Shown here piece after piece: positions 10,043 to 15,144 of a DNA stretch of 64,000 bases (position 1 is the first letter of the stretch; every line of letters starts with the position of its first letter). This DNA comes from Pleomorphomonas sp. PLEO (GTDB taxonomy: Bacteria; Pseudomonadota; Alphaproteobacteria; Rhizobiales; Pleomorphomonadaceae). The stretch covers positions 3,532,001 to 3,596,000 of the forward strand of contig NZ_CP166625.1 in NCBI RefSeq assembly GCF_041320595.1, given 5' to 3'. Below the pieces are notes generated by a model. That model searched no databases. It was not told the origin of the DNA and worked only from the letters and a program-made list of their open reading frames with translations. The translations under genes and the position numbers were made by a program.

Positions 10043-10489
10043 ATGACCGTCAAGTCGCCTAACCCAATAGATATTCATGTTGGTTCGCGCGTGCGCATGC
10101 GCCGACTTCTTGTCGGCATGAGCCAGGGAAAGCTGGCGGAGCAATTGGGCGTTACTTTCCAGCAGGTTCAAAAATACGAAAAGGGAACCAGTCGCATCAG
10201 TGCGTCCCGTCTTCAGACGATCGCTAATGTCTTCGAGGTTCCCGTAGGCTTCTTTTTCGAGAACATTGCCGGCCATTCGCACATTGATGGCGACCCATTG
10301 TCGGACGCCGTCGACACTACCCTGCTGACGCAGGACGGCATGGCCCTCAATAAGGCTTTCGTTCGCATCAGGAGAGCGAGAGTCAGAAGATCCATCATCG
10401 ATTTGGTGAAAATGCTCGCCGACGATGGCCAGACATCCGTCACCGATTTCACGGTTGGCGCTGAGATTCAAAGCCTTCGTTCCAACTGA
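10043..10489 (+). CDS. XRE-family helix-turn-helix regulator
   Basis: 148 residues. An XRE/Cro-type helix-turn-helix occupies residues 14-70: VRMRRLLVGMSQGKLAEQLG, then TFQQVQKYEKGTSRISASRL and FEVPVGFFFE. This is the rhizobial short HTH protein layout with a variable C-terminal tail. It is the first gene of a co-directional group leading into the SARP-type regulator, the small protein, YcaO and TfuA. It probably regulates its own operon. No operator could be picked out. Confidence 0.88.
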   Translation: MTVKSPNPIDIHVGSRVRMRRLLVGMSQGKLAEQLGVTFQQVQKYEKGTSRISASRLQTIANVFEVPVGFFFENIAGHSHIDGDPLSDAVDTTLLTQDGMALNKAFVRIRRARVRRSIIDLVKMLADDGQTSVTDFTVGAEIQSLRSN

Positions 10490-10524
10490 ACTTCGGGAGG
10501 CTTTCGAACCAAACGAGGAACGAC

Positions 10525-12492
10525 GTGCCCTTTGGACTGAAGACCTTCGGCGAGACGCGATTGATCGGATCCGACGGCCAGCTGGTCGCCTTTCCGGATA
10601 AGGGATTGCTTGCAATCGCTTTCTTGGAGTTTCGGCCATCTGGAAGAGTATCTCGGACTGAATTGGCGTCTTTTCTTTGGGGGGAGGGCAACGACGGCGG
10701 CGCCAAGGCGCTCGGCAATCTCCGTCAGCTGCTGTCGAGGATCAGGATACGTCAGCGAGAGCTTAAAGCGAACATCCTCGATATCCGTTCCTCCGAGATT
10801 GCTCTTTGTCGGGACGCTATCGGTTTTGATTTTGAAGACATGCAGCGGGGGTACTCGGAGGGGCCTGTTGAGCGCCTGGAGATCTTCCTGAAGATCTTAT
10901 CGGGGCAGTTTCTCGCCGATATCGATACATCGTCAGAAACGGGCCAGCTCTGGCTTCTGGAGCGGCGCGATTTCTGGTTGGCCGAATTTGCCACTGCGTT
11001 GGAAGAGGCGGCGGCTGCCCTTTCGCGCCAGAACAGCGTGTCGATCAAGACCGCGGCCGCGCGGCTCATCGAGCTGGACCCTTACAGCGATGTCGCCCAT
11101 CAGGTTCTGATGCGGGTCTATGCCAAGGATCGGAGGCTATCCCAGGCCCGGCTCATTTATGACCGCTACAAGCAGCAGCTCTGGTCCGAACTCAATACTC
11201 GGCCGTCCGAGGACATGCTTGGCTTTGCCCGACTGCTGTTCAACGATGAGGGACGGGCGGCTGTTACCGCCATGGAGCCAACCCCAGAGTGGGCTCAAGC
11301 GCGCCATCCGGAGCCGGCTTCAGCATTGCGCCCCCAATTGCCGCGCTTGCTGTTGCTGCCGCCAAGGCGCTCCGAGGAAAAGCGGAATTGGGCGCCCATT
11401 TCCGGGCTGATCGAAGACGTCACCATCGGTCTCTGTCGTATTCCGACCATGGCGATTGTAGCCCCCCATACCGCCAGGCGGATCGCCGGGATGGCTGGAG
11501 AGGAGGCCGATCTTCTGAAGCAGTTCGATGTTTCCTACGTTTTGGAGACGCGACTTCAGGAGCGGGGCGGAGAAACCGCCCTCTATGCAACGCTTGTCCA
11601 TGTTGCGAGCGATGGGGTTGTTTGGTCCGAGAAATTTCCTGGCCACCCGGACGATTTTCCGGACACCTACAATCAGCTTGTTGCCCGGATCGTGCTGGAG
11701 ACGGCAGGTTCGATCGCCAGAAAAGAGTTGGCGAAGATCCGCACCATCTCAAAGCCAACTGCCTATCAGAACTTTCTGCTCGGACAACATAGCCTCTCGG
11801 TTGCCGATCTGCCCGGTATTCGTCGGGCCCGAAAATTCTTCCGCGCAGCTCTTCACGACGCATCGCAATATGCCTCGGCAATTGCCGGTCTGGCGCGAAC
11901 GGAACACCTTGAGTGGCTCCTGACGGCACGCGGCGATGAAGAGTTGCTAAGTTCGGCGGAGGCCCACGCCCGCGACGCCATCCGCATTGGGGCCGACGAT
12001 GCCGGCGGCTATCATCAGCTGGGCGTCGCCAAGCTCTACCAAGGGCAGTTTTTCGAAAGCATGGAAGCCTTTCTCGAGGCTGAAAGCCGGGCTCCGTCGC
12101 ATGCCGACCTGCTTGCCGACCATGCTGATACGCTCGTGCACGCCGCCGATCCGATCCTCGCTCTCGACAAGATCAAACGAGCGATCGAACTCAACCCGCT
12201 ATGCCCCGATCTTTATTGGTGGACGGCGGCTGGTGCTAATTACTTTCTAGAGGAATATGGTGAGGCCATCGCTTGTATCGGCCGGATGGCCGACCAAGCC
12301 AATGCCGGAAGGCTGGCCGCGGCGGCCTACGCCATGCTTGGCGACCAACGAAGCGCCAAGAGAGAGATGCGCCGGACACTCGCGATCTATCCTGATTTCA
12401 CCATCGACGATTGGCTGATGAAGGTGCCGATCCGCGAGAAATGGAAGACGGACATGTTTCGAGACGGCATGCGGAAAGCGGGCTTCAAATAA
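10525..12492 (+). CDS. SARP/BTAD-type transcriptional regulator with TPR C-terminus
   Basis: 655 residues. Residues 1-95 resemble the winged-helix DNA-binding unit of OmpR/SARP regulators (RVSRTELASFLWG, ALGNLRQLLSRIR). Residues 100-235 match the bacterial transcriptional activator domain (FLADIDTSSE, LIELDPYSDVAHQVLMRVYA, ARLIYDRYKQQL). Residues 265-400 resemble the periplasmic/cytosolic middle region of CadC-like and TPR regulators (LLLLPPRR). Residues 410-640 form several TPR-like repeats. The start is GTG 10525 behind AGGA. It lies 35 bases after the XRE gene and 27 before the small-protein gene, so it probably controls this peptide-modification operon. SARP-type regulators often govern natural-product loci; that role here is inference. 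Confidence 0.82.
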   Translation: MPFGLKTFGETRLIGSDGQLVAFPDKGLLAIAFLEFRPSGRVSRTELASFLWGEGNDGGAKALGNLRQLLSRIRIRQRELKANILDIRSSEIALCRDAIGFDFEDMQRGYSEGPVERLEIFLKILSGQFLADIDTSSETGQLWLLERRDFWLAEFATALEEAAAALSRQNSVSIKTAAARLIELDPYSDVAHQVLMRVYAKDRRLSQARLIYDRYKQQLWSELNTRPSEDMLGFARLLFNDEGRAAVTAMEPTPEWAQARHPEPASALRPQLPRLLLLPPRRSEEKRNWAPISGLIEDVTIGLCRIPTMAIVAPHTARRIAGMAGEEADLLKQFDVSYVLETRLQERGGETALYATLVHVASDGVVWSEKFPGHPDDFPDTYNQLVARIVLETAGSIARKELAKIRTISKPTAYQNFLLGQHSLSVADLPGIRRARKFFRAALHDASQYASAIAGLARTEHLEWLLTARGDEELLSSAEAHARDAIRIGADDAGGYHQLGVAKLYQGQFFESMEAFLEAESRAPSHADLLADHADTLVHAADPILALDKIKRAIELNPLCPDLYWWTAAGANYFLEEYGEAIACIGRMADQANAGRLAAAAYAMLGDQRSAKREMRRTLAIYPDFTIDDWLMKVPIREKWKTDMFRDGMRKAGFK

Positions 12493-12519
12493 GGAGCCCG
12501 TGGTTGAGGAGAGAAGAAC

Positions 12520-12780
12520 ATGGCTAAGTTGGCAGTTCTCGGTATCTCCGGCGAGTCCGGATATTGGTTGGTCGATTTTGAAAATGGCACGGTGTCAGCC
12601 CTGCCGGATTCCGCAAAGGAACCGTTCGATTTTTCCAAGACCGCCCGTGACAAGGGCGCGAAACTGGTCGCCGGTGTTGATCTTGCCGTGGCGCTCGACA
12701 GCGGCGATGAGGCCTTCGATGGCAAGGGCGAGGCTTTCTCGGGTCGCCTGAGTGCCTATTCTGGCCGTCTCAACGGGTAA
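12520..12780 (+). CDS. Small Cys-free protein, candidate YcaO/TfuA substrate
   Basis: 86 residues, no recognised family. A ribosome site GGAGAG lies 7 bases before the ATG. The N-terminal third (KLAVLGISGESGYWLVDF) looks like a short beta-hairpin. The middle is acidic and Asp/Lys-rich. The C-terminus FSGRLSAYSGRLNG repeats an aromatic-SGRL unit twice with different codons. There is no cysteine and there are several Ser and Gly residues at the end. Position directly before YcaO, with the YcaO GTG start lying inside its last codons, is where a precursor peptide or dedicated substrate would be expected. A small accessory or regulatory protein is the alternative. Confidence 0.72.
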   Translation: MAKLAVLGISGESGYWLVDFENGTVSALPDSAKEPFDFSKTARDKGAKLVAGVDLAVALDSGDEAFDGKGEAFSGRLSAYSGRLNG

Positions 12781-13999
12781 GGGCGCGTTCGGTCCGATAG
12801 AAGTGGCATCAAGCACACACACCTATTCGGACCGCATGTGCCGTCCGGAGGATACTTTGGTACGCGTGGCGTCGGCGCTCGCCGAGCACGGGGTCACGCG
12901 TCTTGCAAAGGTGACTGGGCTGGATTGCATCGGCATTCCGGTCTGGAATGCCATTCGCCCCAATGCCCGGGCGCTCTCGGTTCACCAAGGCAAAGGCATC
13001 TCGGATGTTGACGCCAAGGCGTCGGCCGTCATGGAAGCGCTTGAACGGGCGTGCGCCGAGCGGCCAAGTCTTCCCACGCGGATGACCTCGGCTGCAGAGC
13101 TGATCGCGAAAGGCAAATTCTGCGATGCTCTCGACGATCTCGTGGCGGCGGGTCACCACCCCAAGGATCGCGCCTGTCGCTTGGAGTGGGTCGAGGGGTA
13201 CGACCTGACGAGCGGCGAGGCGATCTGGGTTCCCTTGGAAGCGGTCCTTCTCGATTTTACCCGTTCCTCGCATTTTTGGCAGTCGTCCGACGGGCTAGCC
13301 TCCGGAAACACCGACCGGGAGGCGATCTTTCACGGCCTGCTCGAACGCATCGAGCGCGATGCCGATACCCTTTGGTCCCTTGAGCGTTTCGAGCGCCAAG
13401 CGGCAACATGCGTTTCAAGCGCCGATCTCAACGACGCCGTCGTGACCTTGCTGGTGGATCGCATAGAACGGGCCGGGTTCAGGCTGCAGCTTTTCGATAT
13501 GACCAGCGATCTCGGCGTGCCGACCTTCTCGGTTCTGCTCGCACCCGCCGACGCGTTATCGCGTCGATCCCTCCGATATATTGACATCACGATGGGGAGC
13601 GGCACGCATCCGGTTGCCTACCGCGCAGCGCTTCGGGCCATCACCGAAGCCGTTCAGTCGCGACTGACGCTGATTACCGGCACACGCGACGACGTCGAGG
13701 ACGATGTCTACGAGAGCCAAGCGTCCGAATTCCTTCTGCGTAAATTGCGACTTCGACCTCAGGCTCGCATCCCCCCCGACCTGTGCGTTCCGGGAGACGG
13801 AGTGGAGGCGATGCTGACGAGTGTTCTGGACAGACTCCGGGACCGCGGAATCGGTCGGATCATCGCAGTTCGGCTGAACCCCGGCGAAGACCGCTTTTCG
13901 GTGATAAAGGTGATCGTGTCCGGCTTGGAGCATCCCGATGGGCGCAGACAGCGTCGTTTTGGCGCAAGGGCTCTCTCGCGTCTTCTGGTGTTTCGATGA
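12752..13999 (+). CDS. YcaO-family cyclodehydratase/thioamidase
   Basis: Up to 415 residues. YcaO enzymes use ATP to phosphorylate a peptide amide and add a nucleophile. Seen: GLDCIGIPVWNAIRPNA, GKGISDVDAKASAVMEALERACAE (Glu-rich ATP/Mg site), IFHGLLERIERDADTLW and AYRAALRAITEAVQSR followed by ITGTRDDV. These are the conserved nucleotide-binding blocks. The C-terminus lacks the proline-rich PxPxP tail of azoline-forming YcaOs, and the next gene is tfuA, as in thioamide-forming pairs. GTG 12752 overlaps the small-protein gene by 29 bases; GTG 12801 is an alternative start that keeps all motifs. The substrate is unknown. Confidence 0.88.
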   Translation: MPILAVSTGKGAFGPIEVASSTHTYSDRMCRPEDTLVRVASALAEHGVTRLAKVTGLDCIGIPVWNAIRPNARALSVHQGKGISDVDAKASAVMEALERACAERPSLPTRMTSAAELIAKGKFCDALDDLVAAGHHPKDRACRLEWVEGYDLTSGEAIWVPLEAVLLDFTRSSHFWQSSDGLASGNTDREAIFHGLLERIERDADTLWSLERFERQAATCVSSADLNDAVVTLLVDRIERAGFRLQLFDMTSDLGVPTFSVLLAPADALSRRSLRYIDITMGSGTHPVAYRAALRAITEAVQSRLTLITGTRDDVEDDVYESQASEFLLRKLRLRPQARIPPDLCVPGDGVEAMLTSVLDRLRDRGIGRIIAVRLNPGEDRFSVIKVIVSGLEHPDGRRQRRFGARALSRLLVFR

Positions 14000-14700
14000 A
14001 GGTCATATTCATCGGTCCATCGCTTCACGGAGCGGAGGCGCGTGCTCCTGCCGGCGCGGCGCTTCGCCCACCCGCGGCCAAAGGTGACCTATACCGGGCT
14101 GTGGAGGAGGGTGCCGACGTCATCGGTCTCGTCGACGGTTATTTCGAAGCGACGGCGGCGGTTTGGCACAAGGAAATCCTCCATGCCTTGTCGTGTGGTG
14201 TGCGCATGTTTGGCGCGGCGAGCATCGGCGCGTTGAGGGCAGCCGAATGCGCCGCGTTCGGCATGACCGGAATTGGAGCTATTTACGAAGCCTATGCCAA
14301 CGGCCAACTGGAGGACGACTCCGAGGTTGCGCTGTTACACGCGCCAAAGGAGCTCGCCTATCTGCCGCTGTCGGAACCTCTGGTCAACGTGAGAGCCACG
14401 CTCAACCATCTGCTACTGGCCGATCTCATTGCCGAGCATCAATCCCAGGCGCTGATCACAACGGCTTCGTCGATCTTCTACAAGGAACGGACCTGGAGGA
14501 TGATCCTTGCCGCGGCGGCGCTGTCGCCCGACGAACGCATGCATATCAGTGGACTGGTGCGGACATTTCGCGTTGACCAGAAAATGATCGATGCGGTGGC
14601 GCTGTTGAAGGCGGTGGAGCTCGAAGCCGACGCCCGATCGAAGCAGTCCCCGGCTTGGGACTTCTCGCATACGTCCTATTTCCAGACGCTTGCTACCTAG
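13996..14700 (+). CDS. tfuA: TfuA-like YcaO partner protein
   Basis: 234 residues. TfuA-like core: VIFIGPSLHGAEAR at the N terminus, PPAAKGDLYRAVEEGADVIG, VDGYFEATAAVWHKEILHAL, the Gly/Ala-rich FGAASIGALRAAECAAFGM and GIGAIYEAYANG. In thioviridamide biosynthesis and in methanogen McrA modification, a TfuA protein works with YcaO to install thioamides, probably in sulfur delivery. The ATG overlaps the YcaO stop (ATGA at 13996-13999), so the two are translationally coupled. A longer in-frame extension upstream lies wholly inside YcaO and is not used. Confidence 0.9.
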   Translation: MKVIFIGPSLHGAEARAPAGAALRPPAAKGDLYRAVEEGADVIGLVDGYFEATAAVWHKEILHALSCGVRMFGAASIGALRAAECAAFGMTGIGAIYEAYANGQLEDDSEVALLHAPKELAYLPLSEPLVNVRATLNHLLLADLIAEHQSQALITTASSIFYKERTWRMILAAAALSPDERMHISGLVRTFRVDQKMIDAVALLKAVELEADARSKQSPAWDFSHTSYFQTLAT

Positions 14701-14773: not shown

Positions 14774-14798
14774 TTTGTAGGCAATGAAGGGGATCGAG

Positions 14799-15029
14799 AT
14801 GCTGGATAGAACCATCGACAAGGCCATTGTGGCCGATTCGGAGGAGTTCGCGGCCCTCGCGCGGTTGATCATCTATGCGCGCCAAACGTCCAAGACGTTG
14901 AATGCCGAGTTCACGTCCTATTGCCTCGACCTCGCGCTGGCGGCGGTCATCGACGAGATGGAAAAAGCCGGTTTCGACACCTCCATCATGGCTCCGAACG
15001 CAGAAGCGGTGATCGGCGAACTTCACTGA
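14799..15029 (+). CDS. Small protein of unknown function downstream of tfuA
   Basis: 76 residues if translated from ATG 14799, which has AAGGGG 7 bases upstream; an in-frame ATG at 14784 lacks such spacing. The sequence is predicted largely helical (EEFAALARLIIYARQTSK, SYCLDLALAAVIDEMEKAGF) with one Cys. It is not recognised as any family. It lies about 100 bases after tfuA and right before a strong terminator, so it may be the last gene of the YcaO-TfuA transcription unit (partner, immunity or unrelated). Codon use matches its neighbours. Confidence 0.62.
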   Translation: MLDRTIDKAIVADSEEFAALARLIIYARQTSKTLNAEFTSYCLDLALAAVIDEMEKAGFDTSIMAPNAEAVIGELH

Positions 15030-15066
15030 CGAATCCGCTTCGGCAGAGTGCTGGAGCTGGCTGGCT

Positions 15067-15100
15067 TTGAGCGCTGGGAACCTGTGTTCCCGGCGCTCAA
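15067..15100 (+). terminator. Rho-independent-like terminator
   Basis: 15-base arms 15067-15081 and 15086-15100 (TTGAGCGCTGGGAAC against its complement with one T.G wobble), a 4-base CTGT loop, then GCGTGTTTTA. It closes the plus-strand YcaO-TfuA region and also separates it from the convergent ABC ATPase gene ending at 15145. Confidence 0.85.
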
Positions 15101-15144
15101 GCGTGTTTTAGGGCCCGAGGCGACGCCTTGGAATGACGTCGTCT

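Follow-up and report, generated by a model that had tools for sequence, protein, structure and literature searches.

A YcaO enzyme encoded beside a TfuA protein raises the question of what the pair acts on. The locus considered here lies in a window of 64,000 nucleotides from the genome of a soil bacterium, Pleomorphomonas sp. PLEO. A first-pass annotation had described five co-directional genes at this locus as an undescribed modification system that brings along its own substrate and regulation; they encode an XRE regulator, a SARP/BTAD-TPR regulator, an 86-residue protein, YcaO and TfuA. The genes form part of a conserved six-gene RiPP-type system, of which the enzyme pair is known and the precursor, a partner gene and a dispersible layout are new. 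The product of the six-gene unit is very probably a small peptide with a chemically altered backbone. Its features are as follows (positions in the window).

10043..10489, + strand: XRE-family regulator, 148 aa (Pfam HTH_3, 1.2e-13)
10525..12492, + strand: SARP-like BTAD regulator with a TPR-type C-terminal part, 655 aa (BTAD, 2e-6)
12520..12780, + strand: SMALL, putative RiPP precursor, 86 aa (leader about residues 1–60, tail 61–86)
12733..12774, + strand: two core-like units of SMALL, AFSGRLS and AYSGRLN, residues 72–85 (6-mer copy count 2)
12803..13999, + strand: YcaO enzyme, 398 aa from a revised GTG start (YcaO, 2.3e-64)
13996..14700, + strand: TfuA, 234 aa (TfuA, 3.2e-45), with an ATGA overlap with YcaO
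14799..15029, + strand: DS81, the sixth gene, 76 aa, predicted helical hairpin, kept behind TfuA in relatives
15066..15101, + strand: terminator-like hairpin of 16 pairs, from a consensus scan only

The five genes of the first description lie where it had placed them, and Pfam backs four of the families (at the E-values listed, and at 3.4e-64 for the YcaO open reading frame). The distances of 35, 27 and −4 bases are also correct; the −29 overlap between SMALL and YcaO is not supported, as a YcaO start at the GTG of position 12803 leaves a gap of +22. An in-frame GTG matching 12803 is present in 10 of 10 loci of the window's genus, which do not share the GTG at 12752, and five of these loci (L017–L021) carry an in-frame stop immediately 5′ of the common codon; GTG 12752 is therefore unlikely to be the YcaO start. 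All five members stood, but the set was incomplete, the sixth gene, DS81, having been overlooked. Its open reading frame was listed as 14784–15029, and a better start lies at 14799, where AAGGGG precedes the ATG. DS81 follows TfuA in all nine loci fetched from the genus, and in relatives as well.

All six genes are under purifying selection, with median dN over median dS at 0.010–0.145 among ten genus sequences, a ratio of medians taken on the profile-covered parts only (for SMALL, residues 1–68). The BTAD domain of the SARP regulator (PF03704) scores 28.6 bits against a cut-off of 22.1, and its TPR_2 match (0.00098) falls below the cut-off; residues 1–107 match no DNA-binding family in Pfam or NCBIfam, and a putative DNA-binding domain was assigned there by eye. 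The operon holds no protease, ThiS or exporter gene. It is preceded by a divergent gene for an FGGY sugar kinase and then one for an AraC-type regulator, both present in 9/9 genus loci, and followed by a convergent gene for a MalK-type ATPase, present in 6/9. Terminator-like hairpins as a class do not exceed the shuffled count (6 found, shuffled mean 5.2), nor do promoter-like sites (2 found, shuffled mean 1.8). A shared operator before the XRE gene, read by eye, is a weak lead, the repeated words stemming largely from ten near-identical genus sequences. A TACTTTTGGTTGCATTTT-like stretch recurs, again by eye, upstream of XRE in L031, L197, L202 and L141, and may be an operator or promoter.

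YcaO and TfuA are each encoded once in the window's genome. Over most of their length, YcaO aligns with MJ1094 (6pe3, 7.5e-36) and TfuA with a TfuA of solved structure (6xp8, 3.2e-35); the ATP-site motifs of YcaO appear to be kept in the MJ1094 alignment. McrA of methanogens is thioamidated by YcaO and TfuA, and uL16 of E. coli by YcaO without TfuA. The best NCBIfam models for the two proteins here are those of archaeal McrA thioamidation, although both scores lie below the cut-offs (TIGR03266 for YcaO, 226.4 against 365 bits; NF033432 for TfuA, 202.2 against 235.2 bits). These scores count for thioamidation of SMALL, and also for a rival reading in which the pair thioamidates a conserved cellular protein, in the manner of McrA, and SMALL serves the SARP protein as partner or co-regulator. 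Unlike the pair that modifies the glycine of McrA, the single YcaO and TfuA here adjoin a small precursor-like gene. Two traits of thioamidated-RiPP clusters are thus found in the sequence, namely adjacent YcaO and TfuA genes (with a 4-base overlap) and a precursor-like gene close by.

The SMALL family comprises 117 distinct sequences from 129 occurrences. Its members have a leader in common, of the form MAKVVVIGxxGExGLWxADLxAGTV, followed later by a GVDLAVA-like motif and then by divergence; a loose GVDLAVA-type pattern, counted with no chance control, occurs in 107 of the 117. Twelve distinct sequences contain 3–8 copies of a 6-mer (cores include DAASHH, AAHILY, ASGLFE, AFSGKL and AGGFLE), and each of the twelve beats all 200 of its own shuffles. 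Seven more have two copies, the window's SMALL among them, whose repeat is borderline when taken alone (shuffle p 0.05). Tandem core repeats in its relatives make SMALL resemble a RiPP precursor, and they are hard to explain in a regulator. In L142 the GVDxAVA motif repeats alongside each core, which suggests that it may be a recognition element. Within the genus, mean identity is 0.74 for residues 61–86 against 0.90 for residues 1–60 (seven distinct sequences). An AlphaFold2 model of SMALL, poor overall (mean pLDDT 62.2), predicts strands at 4–8, 15–19 and 24–27, a helix at 34–44 and a low-confidence tail. The window's SMALL matches no Pfam or NCBIfam family, and members of the SMALL and DS81 alignments give single weak matches only to these collections (best E 0.0088). 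It belongs to an unnamed Hyphomicrobiales family that, by sequence, resembles RiPP precursors. Resemblance of SMALL to the small ORFs of loci classed as SARP-other (L120, L124, L125, L131, L144, L160) is plausible by eye, but hhalign assigns it a probability of 5% (E 0.0079).

In a survey of the order that covered 397 genomes, SMALL (profile A1, E<=1e-3) was found in 32 genomes and TfuA in 62. TfuA is present in all 32 SMALL genomes, where about five would be expected were the two independent, kinship not being allowed for. Its absence from the other 335 genomes makes TfuA ill-suited to a universal cellular substrate. Within the window's genus, 11 of 14 genomes carry SMALL, and the remaining three (G004, G007, G012) lack both SMALL and TfuA. 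Across the class, a search of 385 genomes matched the window's own genome alone. Among the first SMALL matches, L014/L028 (G093, E 0.002) was dropped, none of the six genes being present there. A scan of GTDB contigs confirmed 131 relatives, and the best 80 were kept; the titles of these 80 read Rhizobium, Sinorhizobium, Ensifer, Agrobacterium, Neorhizobium, Pararhizobium, Pseudorhizobium, Hoeflea or just 'Rhizobiales bacterium'. Plasmid records gave 51 matches at E<=0.1, and many copies of SMALL carry no gene annotation in their records. Neither viral contigs searched with the window's SMALL nor phage records searched with that of L181 yielded a relative, and there is thus no sign of a phage gene.

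The 397 genomes contain 73 TfuA places, at which YcaO is adjacent in 72, SARP lies upstream in 44, SMALL is found in 29, DS81 downstream in 24 and XRE in 20, the complete ordered six-gene set being present at 17; six loci have less than 4.5 kb upstream because of contig ends, so these counts are lower bounds. Among the 80 loci drawn by SMALL, SARP lies upstream on the same strand in all 80, YcaO is found in 67, TfuA within the run in 53 and DS81 in 64, and the set is complete and ordered in 51. Recurrence of the ordered six genes in both samples (17/73 and 51/80) argues that the arrangement is not due to chance. SMALL is bound more tightly to SARP (80/80) than to YcaO (67/80), 13 loci having no adjacent YcaO, and this tightest pair is a further point for SMALL as a partner of the regulator. 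Individual loci vary. The R. rhizogenes plasmid pC5.7c (L034) carries a tandem pair of SMALL-YcaO-TfuA sets, with three core-like units in the second of its SMALL proteins, and two consecutive SMALL genes precede a single YcaO-TfuA pair in L036 and L211. Reading frames are broken in YcaO and TfuA of L038 (N. galegae) and L232 and in SARP of L020, through decay or sequencing error.

A tree of 91 YcaO rows (73 unbiased and 18 hand-picked from other loci), built by a quick method and with several long branches that leave deep placements unsure, splits 25 SARP-less loci from 66 that are mostly SARP-associated (support 99). All 47 rows with SMALL fall into one clade of 53 among these 66 (support 92, not starred). 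Leaving out the 18 hand-picked rows, this clade holds 35 rows, of which 29 have SMALL upstream of YcaO. Two of the six rows that lack it are at contig ends: L159, and L115, where the operon is cut and another locus of the same genome, L025, carries XRE-SARP-SMALL. L126 and L137 have a partial SARP match, and L150 and L155 have SARP with no recognised SMALL. The co-occurrence of the small protein with the enzyme pair thus holds in the window's own YcaO clade (29/35), whereas across the order SMALL is found at a minority of TfuA loci (29/73). The clade and the repeats of SMALL together support the earlier proposal of a modification system equipped with both regulators and a substrate.

Other branches of the tree hold further small ORFs. 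L113, L120 and L131 come from a related SARP-YcaO-TfuA branch in which another YcaO precedes SARP. Between SARP and the TfuA-adjacent YcaO they carry long ORFs for small proteins, full of short repeats that are of AGVQSQ type in L113 and L131 and QQ-rich in L120. In the SARP-less branch, L109 and L145 have short ORFs with TPxQVxGKISPKAV-type repeats upstream of YcaO, and these two may encode other precursors.

The strongest evidence comes from the many rhizobia in which the gene set is divided between loci. Sinorhizobium loci have no TfuA between YcaO and DS81, and TfuA is encoded elsewhere in 11 of 11 such genomes searched. In nine of the ten fetched (L250, L259, L260 and L262–L267; the exception is L261), the relocated TfuA follows a gene for an XRE regulator belonging to the same family; in the eleventh case of this type, L170, TfuA and the XRE gene of the operon itself are transcribed divergently. 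R. lusitanum P1-7, R. lusitanum Opo-234 and Rhizobium sp. P38BS-XIX (G418–G420) carry SARP-SMALL with a divergent TfuA and, separately, XRE-YcaO-DS81, so that one YcaO, one TfuA, one SMALL and one DS81 per genome are shared between two loci. In G410 some 18 kb of one contig separate SARP-SMALL from a run of XRE-YcaO-TfuA-DS81, and in G412 the two parts are found on separate contigs; each of these two genomes has another YcaO and TfuA. In G409 the genes occupy four places: SARP-SMALL, TfuA alone, YcaO alone (with partial YcaO pieces) and XRE-DS81. Four further genomes (G411, G413, G414, G415) carry the full six-gene run elsewhere, so that the orphan SARP-SMALL there is an extra copy.

All 13 genomes with an orphan SARP-SMALL pair nonetheless encode YcaO, all ten of those searched encode TfuA, and DS81 is present in 15 of 15 genomes searched for it. 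That the genes are retained although unlinked is better evidence of a single functional set than neighbourhood alone. The genes appear to work together, judging from the keeping of the set in relatives even where its members are scattered. Together with the core repeats and the patchy occurrence of TfuA, the retention tells against a co-regulator beside a housekeeping modification, which we regard as improbable. XRE of the same family heads most of the dispersed pieces in the split genomes. Two-tier regulation by XRE and SARP, as proposed at first, would agree with this position of XRE and with the gene content.

DS81 matches at E<=1e-10 occur in 21 of the 397 genomes, all of which have both SMALL and TfuA. 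Weaker matches occur in 13 more genomes; those in G303, G364 and G260 occupy the expected position, and the other ten are probably due to chance. AlphaFold2 predicts a helical hairpin (mean pLDDT 81.5), and a fold search found no PDB match at E<=0.001. Of the six genes, DS81 is under the strongest constraint within the genus (dN/dS 0.010 over 43 codons), and 82 of its 85 distinct sequences terminate in H, Q, C or N, as against 9% for YcaO and 7% for TfuA. Both the constraint and this terminal bias would suit a reading in which DS81 is the substrate, or a second one, with the modified or acceptor residue at its free C-terminus. Against this reading stand the predicted folded hairpin, the lack of core repeats, as judged by eye, among DS81 sequences, and the absence of DS81 from 8 of 29 SMALL-YcaO-TfuA loci; it is decidedly improbable. 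A carrier, a chaperone or an immunity protein are guesses at the role of DS81. DS81 proteins ending in C belong to one YcaO clade, whose SMALL cores tend (by eye) to have E where others have D.

The reading we prefer, and hold to be probable, is a YcaO-TfuA RiPP pathway of six genes with SMALL as the precursor. It builds on what the sequences display: gene content, the leader and core layout, the repeats of relatives, co-occurrence, co-retention of unlinked genes and purifying selection. The leader of SMALL would be folded, end in the GVDLAVA-like motif and present a short unstructured C-terminal core, which is AFSGRLS-AYSGRLN here and ranges from one unit to about eight in relatives. YcaO would use ATP to activate amides in the backbone of the core, and TfuA would donate sulfur, giving one or more thioamides. 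The product would be released by a protease encoded elsewhere, XRE and SARP would control the gene set, and DS81 would be a dedicated accessory protein. We infer that SMALL is the substrate of the adjacent pair, and likewise its release, its regulation and a role for its product.

The kind of modification, a thioamide on SMALL in the preferred reading, would follow from the enzyme pair. Passages of one source describe TfuA-type hydrolases as handing on sulfide from a ThiS-like thiocarboxylated carrier (PMC13063428), and parts of another treat TfuA as a hallmark of thioamidated clusters (PMC7136475). YcaO might instead form azolines, or make some other backbone change on SMALL. Many SMALL cores contain Ser, and the first tfuA, reported in 1996 from R. 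leguminosarum bv. trifolii T24 (now R. anhuiense), is linked in excerpts of the literature with trifolitoxin (PMC4603692), an azol(in)e-modified peptide (PMC9670871). The hallmark status of TfuA weighs against this, as do the lack of an E1- or ThiF-like partner in the operon and a YcaO nearest to the McrA-thioamidation model, and it is the least probable of the alternatives. R. anhuiense CCBAU 23252, given in a passage of PMC9670871 as having 99.08% ANI to T24, carries the full six-gene operon (L181) among three TfuA genes in its genome.

The YcaO-TfuA pair is not new in rhizobia. According to parts of a 2021 study that mined Rhizobium/Agrobacterium genomes with antiSMASH and RiPPER, Rhizobium holds more than 500 TfuA-related clusters (PMC8120280), and 'TfuA-related' regions are mentioned in passages of two rhizobial genome papers (PMC12993520, PMC7356062). 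The clusters of PMC8120280 share the enzyme pair with the operon described here, but the precursors named in the parts consulted are CCRG-2, berninamycin-like and Nif11-like. SARP/BTAD has 0 occurrences in its main text, while its sections 11–13 and further passages contain no SMALL-type precursor, DS81 or split operons; its supplements may hold some of these precursors. In the portions available of the open-licence literature, supplements excluded, no description of any of the three was found, nor, in the open-licence literature, a characterised product of rhizobial TfuA clusters. 'Undescribed' is hence too strong for the cluster type, and would apply to the precursor, DS81 and the split layout.

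Passages on the thiovarsolin pathway of Streptomyces (PMC6511847) offer another parallel, with YcaO-TfuA, no dedicated protease in the cluster and a precursor core repeated none to five times; at least two copies are present here in 19 of 117 SMALL sequences. That pathway differs in its APR cores and in its heme-oxygenase-like, ATP-grasp, MFS and amidinotransferase genes (PMC6511847), in place of which the present operon has other cores, XRE, SARP and DS81. No heme oxygenase, ATP-grasp ligase, amidinotransferase or MFS protein is found among the operon proteins and nine neighbours scanned.

A more speculative proposal, which we consider unlikely, is thioamide-peptide signalling. The SARP-TPR protein would be the receptor of the peptide encoded behind it, XRE would be the switch of a single regulon made up of the dispersed synthesis genes, and DS81 would serve as a carrier or gatekeeper. 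Were this so, the modified peptide would report to its producer and would not be an antibiotic. For the six-gene pathway itself, SMALL and DS81 constitute families without a Pfam or NCBIfam model, and the analysis supplies both a putative substrate and a sixth component; natural strains with unlinked genes make gene-by-gene testing possible in common laboratory rhizobia.
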